From an uncultured beta proteobacterium (GTDB lineage Bacteria; Pseudomonadota; Gammaproteobacteria; Burkholderiales; Burkholderiaceae_C): 52,243 nt of DNA. The stretch is taken from positions 1 through 52,243 of the forward strand of contig CAIYMN010000393.1 in assembly GCA_903927295.1 (NCBI GenBank), written 5' to 3'. A program made the translations under genes and the position numbers. Of the stretch, positions 15,678 through 52,243 are shown piece by piece (position 1 is the first letter of the stretch; the number at the start of each line of letters is the position of its first letter). Below the pieces are notes generated by a model, which saw nothing but the letters and a program-made list of their open reading frames with translations, ran no database searches and had not been told where the DNA came from.

Positions 15678-15700
15678 AATTGGGGTCAGATTCCAATTAT
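15678..15700. repeat. Left end repeat of the transposase element
   Basis: An imperfect palindrome, AATTGGGG-TCAGA-TTCCAATTAT, that is the inverted counterpart of 16461-16483. It begins only 8 bases upstream of the -24 element of the gltB sigma-54 promoter. Confidence 0.75.
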
Positions 15701-15756: not shown

Positions 15757-16455
15757 CTATGGTGTTCTTTTTACAGTAACCGGCCGGCCCGCCGTACTTC
15801 TGCTCACTCGACGCTCGGTCCGCTTCTGCAAATCCGCCACAAAATCGGGCTCGCCCAGAGCCCAGCCCCGCAAGGCCGAGTCTGTCAACGCCTGCTGCTG
15901 CCCAGCGCCGATGCCAGACTGCACCAGTTCCGCATATGCGGCCTCGCGGGCAAATGGGGTGTTGCCAAGTTCCCACACCAGTGGATGCGGTGTGATGAAC
16001 TTGTCAGTACGTTGCCCGGTGTAGTGTCCAAAGCTCGACCAAGGGTAATCACCCGGCTGAGCGACCAGCCCGGCGCGCACTGGATTCAGATCGATATAGG
16101 CCATACAGGCAAGCAAATAGCGATCTGTCTGGATCAACGTTGACTTGTAGCGCCCTTCCCACAAAGTACCAGTGCGCTTCTGGATGCCGTTGAAATAGCG
16201 CACGTAGCTTCTGCCAACGGCCTGCATCAGTTGCGGCAGGCCGTCTGCCGTCTGAGGCGTCAGCAAAAGGTGAAAGTGGTTGCTCATCAACACATAGGCG
16301 TGGACTTCGACGGCGAACTTGCTCGCGTTCTCGGCCAGCAATCTGATCAGCCTCTGGTAGTCAGGCGTGGCTTGAAATATGGCCTGTCGATTATTCCCGC
16401 GCAGGATCACATGATGGGGGAAACCAGGCAGTGTGAGTCGGGGAAGTCGGGCCAT
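15757..16455 (-). CDS. REP-associated tyrosine transposase (RAYT, Y1 family)
   Basis: A 232-residue single-strand transposase of the IS200/Y1 superfamily, RAYT branch. The HUH metal motif is NHFHLLL (H60 and H62). The family blocks GFPHHVILRGNNRQAIF near the start, YVRYFN (a candidate for the catalytic tyrosine region), GTLWEGRYKSTLI and YIDLNPVRAGLV follow. RAYTs are thought to mobilise REP palindromes, and this one is bracketed by such sequences. The gene looks intact and of usual length. The ATG at 16455 is 6 bases from the right-hand repeat. Possible activity is an inference from the intact frame. Confidence 0.9.
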   Translation of the reverse strand: MARLPRLTLPGFPHHVILRGNNRQAIFQATPDYQRLIRLLAENASKFAVEVHAYVLMSNHFHLLLTPQTADGLPQLMQAVGRSYVRYFNGIQKRTGTLWEGRYKSTLIQTDRYLLACMAYIDLNPVRAGLVAQPGDYPWSSFGHYTGQRTDKFITPHPLVWELGNTPFAREAAYAELVQSGIGAGQQQALTDSALRGWALGEPDFVADLQKRTERRVSRSTAGRPVTVKRTP

Positions 16456-16460
16456 GATGA

Positions 16461-16483
16461 ATAATTGGAGTCTGACCCCAATT
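16461..16483. repeat. Right end repeat of the transposase element
   Basis: Mirror copy of 15678-15700, with the core AATTGGAGTCTGACCCCAAT at 16463-16482. Its outer edge overlaps the TAA stop of the methyltransferase gene (16482-16484). The same 21-base core recurs inside dnaE2 with one difference. Confidence 0.75.
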
Positions 16484-43096: not shown

Positions 43097-43587
43097 TGAG
43101 CGAACGTCTGTTTCAGCTAATCGAATGGCTCAAGGGCTTCAGGTATATCAAGTTCGGGCTGGTCGGGGCCAGCGGCACCGTGGTCAACATGGTGATCCTG
43201 TTTCTGGCGCAGGAATATTTGCTGGCCTTCATTACGCAACCACGTGATCGGCTCTATGCGTCTCTGAGCTTGGCCATTGCCGTGGCCACCGTCAATAACT
43301 TTACCTGGAACAGGCTGTGGACCTGGGCTGACCGCATCCGTGAGAACGCCATCGCAGGCGCTACCGGGGCGGGGTTCAAAGGGCCGCGCAAGCTGTGGAT
43401 GGGCCAACTTGGGCGCTATACGCTGGCCTCCTGGTTTGGTATCGCCCTGCAATACGGTTTGACGCTGTGGCTCTCGCACAATCTGCATTACCTGCTGGCC
43501 AACGTGATCGCCATTGTGATTGCCAGCGTGAGCAACTTTCTTGCCAATGACCACTGGACTTTTCGCCGCCGTCCGCGCATCCCATGA
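43096..43587 (+). CDS. GtrA-family membrane protein
   Basis: A 163-residue protein with four predicted membrane helices and the GtrA hallmarks FRYIKFGLVGASGTVVNMVIL at the start (as RYIKFGLVGASG) and ASVSNFLANDHWTFR at the end. GtrA-type proteins are thought to flip undecaprenyl-phosphate-linked sugars to the periplasm, supplying GT39/GT-C enzymes like the next gene. The ATG at 43096 overlaps the GT9 stop (TGATG); a longer frame inside the GT9 gene is discarded. It overlaps the next gene by four bases. Confidence 0.9.
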   Translation: MSERLFQLIEWLKGFRYIKFGLVGASGTVVNMVILFLAQEYLLAFITQPRDRLYASLSLAIAVATVNNFTWNRLWTWADRIRENAIAGATGAGFKGPRKLWMGQLGRYTLASWFGIALQYGLTLWLSHNLHYLLANVIAIVIASVSNFLANDHWTFRRRPRIP

Positions 43588-45500
43588 ACCAGGTATCGCC
43601 ACCGATCGCGCAGCGCTTTGACGCCAGCACACTGGCCTGGCTGGCTCTGCTGCTGCTGGCGGTCGCGATCTATGCCTATGGTCTGGGTGGTCAATACGTC
43701 CCGAGCAACGGCGACGAACTGGTGTACAGCCATATTGCCCGACTCACAGCAGCTTCCAGGCAGTGGTTGCCGCTGGTGTCTGAACTCGATCACATGCGCA
43801 ACACCAAGCCACCCCTGCTGTTCTGGCAGGGCATTCTAGCCAGCGATTGGGGTCAGCACTGGACTCAGGCGGCACTGCGTGCGCCAAGTCTGATCTACAC
43901 GCTGCTCACATCCGGCGCCATTGTCTGGTGCGTGCAGAGAATCACCGGCGATCTGCGCCGTGCCTGCCTGGCGGCGTGCCTCTATCTGGCATTTTTTTGC
44001 ACCTTCCGCTTCGGTCGAACCTACCTCACTAGCGCGCCCGAAACCTTCTGGCTCAATGTTCCGATGTTCTGGTTGCTGTGGGCACGCCTGCGGCAAACAC
44101 GCCAGCTGAGTTTGTGCAGTTCATCTGGTTGTCATTGCGGACCTGATCCGCAATCCATGCCTTTGGACGATGGATGCCGGGTCAAGCCCGGCATGACAGC
44201 GGGCGAGGCACGTGGCGGCATTTCAGATGGCAGCATGACAAATGGCGACCTGAGCTGGCTAACCCACTTCGGATTTGGTGTCGCGCTGGGTTTGGGGCTG
44301 GCCTACAAATCCTTTGCCCTGATCGCGCCGGCAGCAGCCACCTTGTGGTGTGCGCAGTTATTGAGCTCGCCTGTGCCGAATTGGCGTACAGCAGTCCAAA
44401 TCAGTTTGAAAGTCAGCTTGAGCAGCGCGCTGGCGCTAGGCATTTTTGCACTTTGGTTTGTGCTCGATCCGGACCCTGCAGCAGTCTGGCGAGAGTTCGT
44501 CATCGGCGAAAACGCCGGCAAGCTTTCCAGCGAGAGCGGCTACTGGCGCGTGGCATTGTTCGGTGGCGGCTTCAGCGTGTGGGCGCAACTGCTGGCCTAT
44601 GTACAAAATGCCGGACTGCTGGCCTTTGTCGTACTCGGCTTGATGATTCTCGGGTTACGCGAGGTGTTTGACGCCAAATCCAGACGCAGCACGCCGAGCA
44701 CTCACATGTTCATCCTGCTGAGCTGGCTGGCCGTCTGGCTGATCGTCTTCACGCTGCCGAGCCAGCGCTCCGCGCGCTACGTCATCCCGGCCATGCCCGC
44801 GCTGGCCATGTTGATTGCGCTGTACTGGCAGCGCATAGCCCGAGTGTGGTTTCTCTCATCCTTGCTGCTGTGCGGCATTCTGCTCGTCACGCTGGCACGC
44901 ATCTCCTGGGCAACGGACCAGCTTGGCATTGCGAGCAGTCTGGAACTGGTGATCACGCTGTCTGTCTGTCTCTTCGGTCTCGTGCTGCTCGCTGGCGGCC
45001 TTCTCAATCCCCTCTGGACAAGAGCCTGTACCGTGGCCGCCTGCCTCGTCGTCTACGCCGCGTTTGCTTCAAGCACAGCAAGCCTGAATGGCAGCGCCGG
45101 ACATTACCCTGGCAAGGTACAAGCTCAACTCCAGCAAGCGCGGATTGCGGTACCTGACGGCTTCAATGGCGAGTTCGAGCGCTTTCAATTCCTGCTACCG
45201 GGCAACCAGTTCATTGCCTACGTGCTTGAAGAACGGTCCGCAACCGATTCGGGTGCGCAACAACTCGCTGCCTTGCTGGCAAGTCACGATGCCGTGATCT
45301 GGCTGCAGTCGGACCTCTCTGAACTGGCACCACCGTGTGCGCCGGACTGCCGCGTCCTTGGCTGGCGCTGGGACGTGAAGGGTCGACACCGCAGTGGCGA
45401 AATAAACGCGGGCAATCTCTGGTATCCCGAGCACTGGCTGTTCAGGCGTGAGTGGTTGCTCGCAGGCGCCTTGCCCTCCAGTACCGCCGTGCCACGCTGA
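43584..45500 (+). CDS. Glycosyltransferase family 39 (ArnT-like) membrane protein with repeat-derived loop
   Basis: A 638-residue GT-C fold enzyme with about 10-12 membrane helices. The first periplasmic loop has NGDELVYSHIARL and NTKPPLLFWQ, the usual catalytic-acid region and KPPL motif of PMT/ArnT enzymes, which move a lipid-linked sugar onto lipid A, glycan or protein. Residues 183-205 are encoded by a palindromic repeat (44130-44198) inserted in frame between two helices, and the surrounding loop (about 170-220) is unusually hydrophilic. The 3' end overlaps the convergent membrane-protein gene by 59 bases. Acceptor unknown. Confidence 0.86.
   Translation: MNQVSPPIAQRFDASTLAWLALLLLAVAIYAYGLGGQYVPSNGDELVYSHIARLTAASRQWLPLVSELDHMRNTKPPLLFWQGILASDWGQHWTQAALRAPSLIYTLLTSGAIVWCVQRITGDLRRACLAACLYLAFFCTFRFGRTYLTSAPETFWLNVPMFWLLWARLRQTRQLSLCSSSGCHCGPDPQSMPLDDGCRVKPGMTAGEARGGISDGSMTNGDLSWLTHFGFGVALGLGLAYKSFALIAPAAATLWCAQLLSSPVPNWRTAVQISLKVSLSSALALGIFALWFVLDPDPAAVWREFVIGENAGKLSSESGYWRVALFGGGFSVWAQLLAYVQNAGLLAFVVLGLMILGLREVFDAKSRRSTPSTHMFILLSWLAVWLIVFTLPSQRSARYVIPAMPALAMLIALYWQRIARVWFLSSLLLCGILLVTLARISWATDQLGIASSLELVITLSVCLFGLVLLAGGLLNPLWTRACTVAACLVVYAAFASSTASLNGSAGHYPGKVQAQLQQARIAVPDGFNGEFERFQFLLPGNQFIAYVLEERSATDSGAQQLAALLASHDAVIWLQSDLSELAPPCAPDCRVLGWRWDVKGRHRSGEINAGNLWYPEHWLFRREWLLAGALPSSTAVPR
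44130..44198. repeat. 69-base palindromic repeat inside the GT39 gene
   Basis: Two 29-base halves (44130-44158 and 44170-44198) are imperfect inverted copies, each folding into its own hairpin (ATTGCGGA...TCCGCAAT and ATGCCGGG...CCCGGCAT). The element is exactly 23 codons, in phase with the gene. A related element is in dnaE2 at 48765-48820. The family resembles the widespread proteobacterial repeat with GTCAT...GGAC.TGATCC; that identity is from memory, the palindrome is seen. Confidence 0.8.
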
Positions 45501-47994: not shown

Positions 47995-50900
47995 TCAATG
48001 AAACTCCCGGCTCTGTGTGCTCAGACCGCCCAGCAAGGGCGTCAGATCCCGCAGACGCGAGGCAATCAGATGGCAGACAGCGCCACCACTTTCGACGTCG
48101 CGCTGCCAGACTCCGTAGACCGCCAGCAGACGTGACCTGAGCAGTTCGCTGCGCTGCTTTTCCTTCAGCGCCTGCCAGACAATCACATTGACGCTACCCG
48201 TTTCGTCCTCCAGTGTCACAAAGGTCACACCCTTGGCGGTCTGCGGTTGCTGGCGCATGACCACCAGGCCGCAAGCAGCGACGCGCCGCCCGTCCGGCAA
48301 GGCATGCAAGCGGGACGCTGTCAGCAACTTCTGCTGCGACAAGCGCGGGCGCAGCAGGGCCAGGGGGTGACTGCGCAAAGTCAGCCCCAGCGCAGCATAA
48401 TCAAAGAACACCTCTTCGCCCTCGCTGGCAGCGGGCAATTCCAAAGCCGCTTCTACTACGGGCACCGAGCGCAGCAGGCCTGGCGCCGGTTTGAGCGCAG
48501 CGGCCTGCCAGACCTGTTGACGCCGGTGACCTGACAGGCTCAACAGTGCATCAGCGCTGGCCAGTGCCTTGAGATCAGCCTGATCAAGTTCAGCGCGCAA
48601 GGCCATGTCTTCGGCGCTGCTGAAAGGACTGTTGCTGCGCGCCGCCACAATGCGCTGCGCCGCAGCTTCGGCCAGACCGCTGACCATGCGCAAGCCCAGG
48701 CGAACAGCGGGTAGGGAATGGCTGTCATCCTGGACTTTCAAGTTGTCATTGCGGACCTGCGAATTGTCATCCCGGACTTGATCCGGGATCCATGGATTGC
48801 GGATCAAGTCCGCAATGACAACTTCGGGGTCCCTGCGAAAAGAATTGGAGCCTGACCCCAATTTCTGCAATTCCTCCAATTCCTGTATGACAACTTCGGG
48901 GGGCCCTGCAGCTTGTTGCTCCAATGTGCAGTCCCAGTCGCTGTAGGTAACATCGACAGCGCGCACCTGCACACCATGTCGAATCGCATCCTGCACCAAC
49001 TGTGAGGGGCTGTAAAAACCCATGGGCTGGCTGTTGAGCATGGCCACCAGATAGCAGGCGGGATGGTGGTGTTTGAGCCAGCAACTCACATAAACCAGCA
49101 AGGCAAAACTGGCGGCATGGCTCTCCGGAAAGCCGTATTCACCAAAACCCTCGATCTGTTTGAACAGGGTGTCGGCAAACTCCTGCGTGTAGCCGCGTGC
49201 CAGCATGCCGCTGACCATGCGCTCATAGAACTTGTGCACTCCACCCTTGCGCTTCCAGGCGGCCATGGAGCGGCGCAGACTGTCAGACTCACCAGCGCTG
49301 AAGCCCGCCGCCAGCATGGCAATCCTCATCACCTGCTCCTGAAAAATCGGCACTCCGAGCGTGCGTTTAAGGGCTTCTTTGAGGGCCGCACTGGGGTACA
49401 CAACCTGATCCGGATGCTCGCGTGCCTTCAGATAGGGATGCACCATGCCGCCCTGGATCGGGCCCGGGCGCACGATCGCAACTTCGATCACCAGATCATA
49501 GAAACACTTCGGCCGCAGGCGCGGCAGCATGCTCATCTGGGCCCGGCTCTCGATCTGGAACACGCCTACTGTGTCGGCCTTGCAGATCATCTCGTAGGTG
49601 GGGCCATCATCGTCCGGGATGTCCTGCATCGAAAACGGCTTGCCACGGCGGCGGCTGATCAAGTCCAGACAGCGCCGGATGGCGCTGAGCATGCCCAGTG
49701 CCAGCACATCAACCTTGAGCCAGCCCATGGCGTCCAGATCGTCCTTCTCCCACTGAATGATGGAACGCTCGGGCATGGCGGCGTTCTCCACCGGCACCAG
49801 ACGCGTCAGCTTGTCATGCGTCAGCACAAAACCGCCCACATGCTGGCTCAGGTGGCGCGGGAAACGCTGCAACCGGGTGGCCAGACTGAGCCAGAGCTGT
49901 AACTGGAGCGGCTCTGGCGCTGTGAACGCGGACCCCAGATGTTCCAGCGCCGACTGCAAACGCCCGGCCAGCACTTCGCGGCTGTACATGCCCGGATGCT
50001 CCTTCGCCAGCGCCGTGATCAATGCCTCGTCAATGCCCAGCGCTCGCCCGACATCCCGCAGCGCACTGCGCGGACGGTAGCTGACCACCACCGCCGTCAA
50101 AGCGGCGCGCTCCCGGCCGTACTTGGCGTAGATGTACTGGATCACTTCTTCACGCCGCTCGTGTTCAAAATCCACATCAATGTCAGGCGGCTCACCGCGC
50201 TCGCGGCTGATGAAGCGCTCAAACAGCATATTCATGCGTGAGGGATCGACCTCGGTCACACCCAGGCAGTAACAAACCGCAGAATTGGCCGCTGAACCGC
50301 GCCCCTGGCACAGGATGTCACGGCTGCGGGCAAAAGCCACGATGTCGTGCACCGTCAAAAAATACATCTCGTAATTGAGTTCGGCGATCAGCGTCAGTTC
50401 ATGTCCGATTTGCTGGTGCACACTTTCCGGTATGCCTGAGGGGTAACGCCGTACCGCACCTTCCAGAGTGAACTGGCGCAGGGTTTGTGCCGGTGTTTGA
50501 CCGGGCAGCACGGTCTCCAGCGGGTACTGATAGCGCAACTCGTCCAGGCTGAAGCTGCAGCGCTGTGCGATCAGCAGCGTATGGGCCAGCAACTCGGGCG
50601 GATAGATCGTCGAGAGCCGCTGGCGCGAGCGCAAGTGAGCTTCAGCATTGGACTGCAATGCAAAGCCGCACTGCGCCACCGTGCAGCCCTGGCGCACCGC
50701 TGTCATCACGTCCTGCAGCGGCTTGCGCGAGCGCAAGTGCATGTGCACATTGCCACTGGCCACCAGCGGCACCCCGGTAAGGCGTGAGAGTTGCTGCAAG
50801 CGGAGCAGCAACAATGCATCGTCCAGTCCCAGTAGCAGTTCCACGCTCAGCCACAAGTTCTGTGTAAAAAGGTGCTTGGCCCGGATCACCGTGGCGCAGG

Positions 50901-51339
50901 CAGTTTCGAAACCGATAGCCGATGAAAATGCCAGTAAAACTTCGCACCCTCCGAGCATGGCCCAGTGCGAATCTGGCCATGCCATGCGGTACTGACCCTT
51001 GGGTGCAGACCGGCGCGCCAGTGTGATGAACTCGCACAGATTGCCCCAGCCCTGCAGATGCTGCGGCAAGACAATCACGCTAAAACCCGGCAGTGCAAAT
51101 TCAGCACCGGGCAGCAACTTCAAACCCAGTTTTTTCGCCTCGGTGTGAGCCCGCACCAGACCTGCCACTGAACACTCGTCAGTGATCGCCAGCGCTGCGT
51201 AACCCAGAGCAGCAGCGCGCGCCACCAGTTCTTCGGGTTGCGAGGCGCCACGCTGAAAGCTGAAGCTCGACAGGCAATGCAACTCGGCATAGGCCGGCAA
51301 AGCAGCTTCAGCCACAGGTGTCTTAAGCAAACAGGCCAT
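47995..51339 (-). CDS. dnaE2: Error-prone DNA polymerase DnaE2 with repeat-derived insertion
   Basis: A 1114-residue C-family polymerase of the ImuA-ImuB-DnaE2 mutasome, which copies across DNA lesions. The PHP domain begins YAELHCLSSFSFQRGAS, the polymerase catalytic aspartates are in EPPDIDVDFEHERREEV, and CQGRGSAANSAVCYCLG is the family nucleotide-binding region. An HhH domain starts near residue 875 and an OB domain (GVTFVTLEDETGSVNVIVW) follows. Residues of about 811-873, just before the HhH domain, are built from repeats. The ATG at 51339 lies 17 bases inside imuB; a longer start at 51384 is less likely. Confidence 0.93.
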   Translation of the reverse strand: MACLLKTPVAEAALPAYAELHCLSSFSFQRGASQPEELVARAAALGYAALAITDECSVAGLVRAHTEAKKLGLKLLPGAEFALPGFSVIVLPQHLQGWGNLCEFITLARRSAPKGQYRMAWPDSHWAMLGGCEVLLAFSSAIGFETACATVIRAKHLFTQNLWLSVELLLGLDDALLLLRLQQLSRLTGVPLVASGNVHMHLRSRKPLQDVMTAVRQGCTVAQCGFALQSNAEAHLRSRQRLSTIYPPELLAHTLLIAQRCSFSLDELRYQYPLETVLPGQTPAQTLRQFTLEGAVRRYPSGIPESVHQQIGHELTLIAELNYEMYFLTVHDIVAFARSRDILCQGRGSAANSAVCYCLGVTEVDPSRMNMLFERFISRERGEPPDIDVDFEHERREEVIQYIYAKYGRERAALTAVVVSYRPRSALRDVGRALGIDEALITALAKEHPGMYSREVLAGRLQSALEHLGSAFTAPEPLQLQLWLSLATRLQRFPRHLSQHVGGFVLTHDKLTRLVPVENAAMPERSIIQWEKDDLDAMGWLKVDVLALGMLSAIRRCLDLISRRRGKPFSMQDIPDDDGPTYEMICKADTVGVFQIESRAQMSMLPRLRPKCFYDLVIEVAIVRPGPIQGGMVHPYLKAREHPDQVVYPSAALKEALKRTLGVPIFQEQVMRIAMLAAGFSAGESDSLRRSMAAWKRKGGVHKFYERMVSGMLARGYTQEFADTLFKQIEGFGEYGFPESHAASFALLVYVSCWLKHHHPACYLVAMLNSQPMGFYSPSQLVQDAIRHGVQVRAVDVTYSDWDCTLEQQAAGPPEVVIQELEELQKLGSGSNSFRRDPEVVIADLIRNPWIPDQVRDDNSQVRNDNLKVQDDSHSLPAVRLGLRMVSGLAEAAAQRIVAARSNSPFSSAEDMALRAELDQADLKALASADALLSLSGHRRQQVWQAAALKPAPGLLRSVPVVEAALELPAASEGEEVFFDYAALGLTLRSHPLALLRPRLSQQKLLTASRLHALPDGRRVAACGLVVMRQQPQTAKGVTFVTLEDETGSVNVIVWQALKEKQRSELLRSRLLAVYGVWQRDVESGGAVCHLIASRLRDLTPLLGGLSTQSREFH
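48742..48822. repeat. Palindromic repeat cluster inside dnaE2
   Basis: A 56-base palindromic element (48765-48820) with two hairpins, CCCGGA...TCCGGG and ATTGCGGA...TCCGCAAT, is preceded by a partial extra half-copy. Outer arms at 48742-48756 and 48808-48822 form a perfect 15-base inverted repeat. Read on the gene's strand it encodes ADLIRNPWIPDQVRDDN and shorter decayed versions (QVRNDN, KVQDDS). It is related to the element in the GT39 gene. Confidence 0.8.
48815..48905. repeat. Direct repeat enclosing a RAYT-end copy inside dnaE2
   Basis: ATGACAACTTCGGGG occurs at about 48815-48829 and again 72 bases on at 48887-48901, giving the repeated peptide PEVVI. Between them at 48843-48863 is a 21-base copy of the transposase-element end (AATTGGAGCCTGACCCCAAT then T), differing at one base from 16463-16483. 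The 72-base offset is 24 codons, so the frame is kept. Confidence 0.75.
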
Positions 51340-52243
51340 GCAGGTACCAGCTTGAATCGGACTCTGCTCCGGCACGCTCGGCACTCAGGCGTTCGCGGTA
51401 AATCCAGAGCAGACCGAACTGCTCGCTGCGCGCCAGAAAATAGTCGCGCAAGGCGCAGTCAGCGCCATCCCACCAGGCCGTCTCAAGACGCTGTGGACCC
51501 GCCAGCAGGGTCAGAGGACCGGGGTAATGCGGACACTGGTCGCGCACCACCAAACGCAGTGGCTTGTCCAGCAGCCAGCTTGGATACAGCACACTTTGAT
51601 CGCTCCTGGCAAGCTTGCCCTGTCGCGTGCCCTGTGCCAGCTTGTGCCAGAGCTGCATGCGCTCAGGTCGGTGCTCGGTACACTCCTGCGCCTGCAACAC
51701 CTGAGCATTCCCCAAGCGCGCGCACAGGCGCTCCTGCATCTGCAGCAAGCTGTCGCCATCGACTTGCTCCTGTGGCAGCAAGCTGCCCGTTTCACCCCGC
51801 AGTTTTTCGGTTTCCAGAGAGCGCAAACGCAGGTACAGCACCGGTGCCGGCAAGGTGATGCGCGCCAGTTGTTCGGCCAGCAAACGCTGCAGGTGCGCCA
51901 TGTCGGCGCTCGGCTCGGCCGTGCGCAGTAGCAGTTCACCCTGACTGACCGTATCGCGCCGCTCATCCATGGTCCAACCCAGCAACAGTGCCAACACACC
52001 TGCGTGGCGCGCCTGCAACCAGAGTTGCAACTGATTGAACAGGCGGCGCGCGCCAAACAGCAACGCCGGCGCCGCCTCCACCTGTGCACCGAGTTCCAGC
52101 GTCGCGTCAAACTGTTCTGGCAACATCAGCCAGGGGTAGCTGTCGGGCGCCTGCCCGTAGGCTCGGTCCAATGCATCGAGCAGGTCCGCGTCAAAGCGAC
52201 GCACCACACCACCCCGCGGCAGGGCGCGTAACTGCCCCCAGCA
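51323..52243 (-). CDS. imuB: ImuB, Y-family polymerase-like protein, 5' end outside the window
   Basis: The C-terminal 306 codons are present and the frame is open to the right edge, so the start is outside. ImuB is a catalytically inactive Y-family polymerase homologue that binds the beta clamp and recruits DnaE2 and ImuA. The segment LRALPRGGVVRRF and RAYGQAPDSYPWLMLPEQF match the family's C-terminal half, as do QCPHYPGPLTLLAGPQRLETAWWDG in two blocks and the closing LLWIYRERL-WYLHGLFA. It overlaps dnaE2 by 17 bases. imuA and any LexA-controlled promoter would lie beyond the window. Confidence 0.92.
   Translation of the reverse strand, partial: CWGQLRALPRGGVVRRFDADLLDALDRAYGQAPDSYPWLMLPEQFDATLELGAQVEAAPALLFGARRLFNQLQLWLQARHAGVLALLLGWTMDERRDTVSQGELLLRTAEPSADMAHLQRLLAEQLARITLPAPVLYLRLRSLETEKLRGETGSLLPQEQVDGDSLLQMQERLCARLGNAQVLQAQECTEHRPERMQLWHKLAQGTRQGKLARSDQSVLYPSWLLDKPLRLVVRDQCPHYPGPLTLLAGPQRLETAWWDGADCALRDYFLARSEQFGLLWIYRERLSAERAGAESDSSWYLHGLFA

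Follow-up and report, generated by a model that had tools for sequence, protein, structure and literature searches.

Why does an error-prone DNA polymerase gene carry, well inside its reading frame, a stretch built from dispersed palindromes? The question arises in a 52,243-nt contig (hereafter the window) from an uncultured beta proteobacterium, in which dnaE2 occupies positions 47995 to 51384 of the minus strand as an intact frame of 1129 codons. The gene was identified from its Pfam domains and from 69 related loci, and its product contains, in order, PHP (residues 34-128), DNA_pol3_alpha (301-562), the finger domain (565-730), and HHH_6 (893-956). An earlier note on this DNA had proposed that two unrelated repeat families are stacked in frame within the gene, in a tolerant linker that serves as a landing site.

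The extra sequence lies in a loop of 213 nt (48706 to 48918, minus strand; residues 823-893) between the motifs DCTLE and VRLGL, all 71 codons of which are free of stops; the linker had been placed at residues of about 811-873, but the 1129-codon frame puts it further along. L041, the complete relative nearest to it (80% identical), has a loop of 11 residues, leaving an excess of about 60 in the window. An AlphaFold model of DnaE2 (40 sequences; mean pLDDT 84.3) brackets the loop with beta strands at residues 820-822 and 893-895, gives pLDDT values below 50 at 826-836 and 838-888, and predicts disorder for nearly all of 826-888. Of 14 dnaE2 genes, 11 have a PF14579 (HHH_6) match that runs across the loop; in the other three, the window's included, the match begins after it. 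Because the modelled strands flank the loop and PF14579 spans the site in most of these genes, the insert is predicted to make up the tip of the HhH domain's first beta-hairpin, and the earlier placement just before that domain has to be moved inside it. In an alignment of 168 proteins, this hairpin loop is the DnaE2 segment richest in long variants (39/168). A short contig of the host carries a second dnaE2 (L328, G000:C166), whose loop has 7 residues; one TGA falls within the search match of this copy.

A nested palindrome, recognized from inverted repeats and genome matches, occupies 48765 to 48821 (minus strand) and belongs to a dispersed family. A 40-nt inverted repeat (78%) pairs 48753-48792 with 48793-48832, and a partial copy consisting of an arm (48740 to 48759, minus strand) forms a 20-nt inverted repeat of 95% with 48805-48824. 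Searching the host genome with this insert gave 84 matches. At E ≤ 1e-3 there were 41 distinct places with the dnaE2 copy counted, a lower bound because 40 of the 92 candidates were scored. A second member in the window (44128 to 44198, plus strand; 75% match, 1.5e-8) lies in frame in a 638-codon ORF (43584-45500) that has no Pfam match and that we take to resemble a membrane glycosyltransferase. Two sub-threshold Rfam microRNA matches on the nested palindrome were dismissed as chance.

The other element in the loop is a 21-nt REP-like palindrome at 48843 to 48863 (minus strand; sequence at these positions AATTGGAGCCTGACCCCAATT), which is translated as L-G-S-G-S-N. Its consensus resembles that of the nested palindrome no better than chance (27 of 300 shuffles scored as high), and with the loop stop-free the picture of two unrelated families in frame inside dnaE2 stood up. 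What had been described as a 72-base direct-repeat unit proved to be only a 25-nt direct repeat (84% identity) at 72-nt spacing and not a repeat family; its copies lie at 48805 to 48829, overlapping the nested palindrome, and at 48877 to 48901, on the far side of the REP, and the longest genome match of this stretch was 25 nt, located at the REP core.

A RAYT-type Y1 transposase gene of 232 codons (PF01797 Y1_Tnp, 8.5e-13) is found at 15757 to 16455 on the minus strand of the window. Near-copies of AATTGGAGCCTGACCCCAATT sit on either side of it, downstream at 15678 to 15698 (minus strand, two mismatches) and upstream at 16463 to 16483 (plus strand, one mismatch), where the chance expectation is 0. 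The general RAYT-palindrome pattern gave 10 + 10 matches in the host genome (G000), falling in 15 distinct places, while the reversed pattern gave 0. The palindrome is short, imperfect, and present in many copies that include those flanking a Y1 tyrosine transposase gene, as in RAYT-associated REPs, so its description as a RAYT end was borne out, as was the expectation that both motifs recur elsewhere in the genome (at least 41 and 15 places). The RAYT transposase is the likely mover of the REP. The dnaE2 copy in the window is a singlet, lacking the head-to-head doublet of a REPIN that is present in L112, and no GTAG or CGTC tag was visible by eye at the ends of the 21-mer. As in an intragenic palindromic repeat, the insert is dispersed, lies in frame in a conserved gene, and is missing from close orthologs (the loops of L041 and L110 have 11 residues each).

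To place this loop among others, we extracted 235 dnaE2 loops, the window counted. The sample was not random: it comprised 62 of 69 contig-search loci, 29 loops from the 30 best family matches (one of which was the window), 79 of 80 further family stretches, 27 of the 28 best class matches, all 20 short class stretches, and 17 of 20 extra stretches, many of them picked for cut or partial matches and one being the second dnaE2 of the host. Of the family genomes with a match, about 180 out of 289 lay outside it, as did more than 30 of 107 class genomes. The shortest loop had 3 residues and the longest 104 (median 15 residues among 171 loops), contents varied, and the three genomes of the window's genus with a dnaE2 match had loops of 11, 28, and 7 residues with neither window motif; the expected absence of the linker from orthologs was thus confirmed. 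Lengths were divisible by three in 233 of 235. One exception, L335, had a poor anchor match; the other was the Rhodoferax antarcticus dnaE2 loop (L052, 6455-6597), which is out of frame with stops.

Repeat-like inserts were present in 21 of the 235 loops, window included, with labels assigned by eye from translations and tested afterwards. They occurred in 5 of 62 contig-search loci, 7 of 29 best family matches, 5 of 79 further family stretches (three picked for cut matches, leaving 2/76 among the rest), 3 of 17 extra stretches, and none of the 27 best class matches or 20 short class stretches. The phenomenon is strongest among the relatives of the window and scattered beyond. A second two-family stack was found in L141 and possibly another in L339, and at least nine other loops of 34 residues or more carried no recognized repeat origin.

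Further copies in the same genome backed 16 of the 21 repeat-like loops; L115, L116, L117, L121, and L334 were assigned by resemblance only. Consensus comparison sorts the inserts of the 16 supported loops into five groups with no sequence relationship to one another, namely the RAYT palindrome, the window palindrome together with the RAQRGNP type, the PLSPWER type, the GTAGGAGC type, and the L053 element. We had treated the window palindrome and the RAQRGNP type as unrelated, but they proved alike (0/300 shuffles) and were joined. The L053 insert, once taken for two families, is one element in several copies, and the yes/no counts were unchanged.

Matches to the RAYT palindrome numbered 34 in G061, 36 in G317, 25 in G173, 16 in G027, 8 in G097, 7 in G042, 20 in the host, 10 in G405 (three within L073 itself), 7 in G346, 1 in G284, and 0 in G261; head-to-head REP doublets were present in G061 and G317. 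The L141 linker had 42 matches in G317, and that of L084 had 82 in its own genome and 94 in the genome of L085. The L157 linker, whose family was also presumed for L117, had 7 matches in its own genome (G208), 11 in G114, 20 in G399 (L092), 26 in G400 (L053; none on the dnaE2 contig), and 2 in G131, neither at dnaE2; in G280, of the same genus, it had 0 matches, and the dnaE2 loop there has 12 residues. The L053 insert had 25 own-genome matches, three of them inside the gene itself. For L339, 13 matches including its own came from three pieces, one of which has a single weak match (3.9e-4), and for L329 many of the 16 matches including its own lay in two tandem arrays. L092 and L140 had further copies at other loci of their genomes.

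Parsimony on a tree inferred from 234 DnaE2 proteins with the loop left out required 16 changes for all 21 insert labels and 15 for the 16 supported ones. Many nearest relatives of insert-bearing loops have no recognized repeat in the loop. Contents differ even among five species of genus g62 (tree distances 0.05-0.16), where L112 has a full REPIN, L115, L116, and L140 have the RAQRGNP type, and L141 has the RAQRGNP type plus a REP.

We then asked whether the hairpin loop is special. The RAYT pattern had 9 matches (seven loci) in 14.4 kb of loops. In 1.78 Mb of flanking sequence it had 2, both at one locus that must be the RAYT gene of the window; because the pattern was derived from the window, its own loop is not independent and six independent loci are left. 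The rest of dnaE2 had 2 matches in 483 kb, both in L073. For loops, rest of dnaE2, and flanks, respectively, matches were 1, 0, and 1 for the window palindrome, 3, 0, and 1 for the RAQRGNP type, 3, 0, and 2 for the PLSPWER type, and, as scanned, 0, 1, and 6 for the L053 element. The GTAGGAGC type, at 2, 7, and 16, is not concentrated in the hairpin, which counts against the landing-loop explanation.

A pooled BLAST at E 1e-3 was swamped by chance matches and by upstream windows running past the gene, and was rerun with the far upstream and downstream windows left out. Matches were then found for 23 of 171 loops versus 301 of 5264 dnaE2 control windows at 1e-4, and for 11 of 171 versus 29 of 5264 at 1e-6. 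Among 15 control windows matching at 1e-7, 12 matched L144 or L113, which presumably hold leftover dnaE2-like sequence, two were Luteimonas inserts, and one was another case. The paralog taken as DnaE1 (the other HHH_6 polymerase) had a short, clean hairpin, read off from coordinates, in all 14 genomes with repeat-like dnaE2 loops. It is not obvious that tolerance of length alone accounts for the enrichment. Segment 79-90, in the PHP domain, runs long in 31 of the 168 proteins, none of which has any of the six family patterns there, whereas 11 of the 39 long hairpin loops do (Fisher 0.0008); the comparison is imperfect because that PHP insert looks clade-conserved by eye. In segment 132-153, the GTAGGAGC type was present in four of seven long cases (L068, L084, and L085 [Luteimonas], and L087). 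These residues (window numbering), in the PHP domain, form a second landing loop, and the GTAGGAGC-type repeat is in tandem in L087.

The best explanation, to which we give a probability of roughly 0.77, is that the extra loop consists of stacked repeat copies inserted at the DnaE2 hairpin tip, a landing site limited by tolerance. A RAYT transposase would copy the REP palindrome to further sites, either alone or paired as a REPIN. Copies that break the fold or the frame would be purged, leaving the hairpin tip among few in-gene landing sites; in-frame copies of several unrelated families do occupy this one loop in several lineages, and they would have survived because the frame stayed open and this exposed loop can be dispensed with. 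Loop contents, which differ between species of one genus, would turn over fast, a reading drawn from sequence patterns. A repeat-filled loop would need no new function. Of the earlier idea of a tolerant landing site, the landing site is well founded (21 of 235 loops, with the paralog clean in 14 of 14), while tolerance is its probable cause. The recurrence of dnaE2, uvrA, and purL as REP hosts is compatible with targeting or selection too. Also weighing against the explanation are the concentration of inserts among relatives of the window, the five inserts assigned by resemblance, and the nine or more long loops with no recognized repeat origin.

It is unlikely that one or a few ancient insertions were inherited vertically, with many losses and with gene conversion keeping the likeness to genomic copies. 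Such a history would fit the REP lying in the same frame across five forward loops (the window, L112, L123, L129, and L139), and likewise the PurL REP, whose site and frame agree between two genera. It sits poorly with dnaE2 REPs that differ by only 0-2 mismatches from a common pattern across five genera, with the many nearest relatives whose loops have no recognized repeat, with the reversed REP in L141 and the doublet in L112, and with the occupation of the site by unrelated families.

We consider it similarly improbable that the loop is selected, tuning DnaE2, for example near a predicted contact of the (HhH)2 region with the thumb of ImuB, or acting through an mRNA hairpin, and so adjusting mutation supply. 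The RNA of the insert does fold far better than shuffles (−80.5 kcal/mol, z −5.9), but a hairpin is expected from any palindrome. Modeling predicts that the region contacts ImuB (PMC12926913, available text), and REP inserts in repair genes have been speculated to help make mutators (PMC3733652, main text). On the other side, loop contents are unrelated between lineages, loops are mostly short, and REPs are also found in PurL, hydantoinase, AcrB-family, and carboxyltransferase genes.

Somewhat more doubtful is a machinery that targets the site or the gene, through a short target sequence or a preference for SOS-induced genes. Both dnaE2 and uvrA are SOS genes, and dnaE2 genes with the REP come from six family genomes, which span five genera, and uvrA genes with it from two genera. 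REP density in the loop is orders of magnitude above that in the flanks. However, the same loop is used by families for which no RAYT is known, and PurL is not a typical SOS gene. We would give equally little weight to the bolder proposal that the hairpin tip is a true hot spot to which palindromes are preferentially delivered or at which they are preferentially kept, with copying in SOS-induced cells while dnaE2 and uvrA are open and with the loop, in a domain predicted to touch ImuB, altering mutasome assembly; if true, the repeats would tune the mutation supply of their host and thereby their own spread. An assembly artifact of a metagenome bin at a repeat is very improbable, for although the source genome is in 400 contigs and 86.8% complete and a 90%-identical relative (L040) stops at residue 810, just short of the loop, the frame is intact through 213 nt and such inserts are present in better assemblies (G114, three contigs and 100% complete; G097, 30 contigs).

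The tolerated landing site has precedents in part. REPs inside dnaE2, uvrA, and other repair genes were reported in 2013 (PMC3733652), and that main text shares with our data short palindromes in dnaE2 and uvrA, dimers, several elements per gene, and a mostly intergenic location otherwise. It describes the repair-gene REPs, recB aside, as sitting at different sites, whereas here one DnaE2 hairpin tip is common to many lineages, with five repeat groups and two-family stacks; the contrast is with the main text, the positions of its DnaE2 cases being in supplements. The likeness to Rickettsia RPEs drawn in the earlier note holds as a parallel, in that palindromic repeats are fused in frame into conserved proteins (PMC10969869, PMC3733652; compared by description only), but these are other organisms, our case involves a RAYT-linked REP and one loop recurrent across genera, and the 2013 dnaE2 cases are a closer precedent. 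As in the REPIN/RAYT system (PMC3116915, available text), a palindrome flanks a Y1 transposase gene and head-to-head doublets are present (G061, G317); in that account the elements are extragenic, whereas in our data genes themselves contain copies, the one in the window's dnaE2 being a singlet. Among titles and abstract openings, with few subscription journals covered, we found no report of one DnaE2 site common to several repeat families. Intragenic REPs in dnaE2 and uvrA are already known, and the shared hairpin tip across repeat families appears to be new. Scattered reports of intragenic REPs would become a testable rule, namely that one polymerase loop repeatedly takes unrelated palindromes while its replicative paralog stays short and clean. 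The loops also offer a natural allele series with which to ask if proteins simply tolerate mobile repeats or are remodeled by them, and if there is any effect on damage-induced mutagenesis.

REPs in other genes were surveyed in 60 stretches from five genomes, which cover most REP places away from dnaE2 and hold 71 elements, 36 of them within long ORFs. Counting any long ORF over a REP as a gene was rejected, and because 17 of 29 ORFs examined had no Pfam match, only domain-supported cases were used. UvrA carries REPs in G061, G317, and G097, with one linker before the P-loop common to the three; the long UvrA proteins (L244, L276, and L260) have REPs or REPINs at this linker, and that of G317 has three elements. 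The PurL REP lies at one site and in the same frame in two genera (G317 and G000), at residues 431-453 of the L274 ORF and 368-374 of the L293 ORF. Other domain-supported cases are a hydantoinase gene in G317, an AcrB-family gene in G000, and a carboxyltransferase gene in G097. In the LplA ORF of G000 (L294 and L010, G000:C327), a REP lies upstream of the domain and the window's palindrome family lies inside it, so that the two occupy different places in one ORF.
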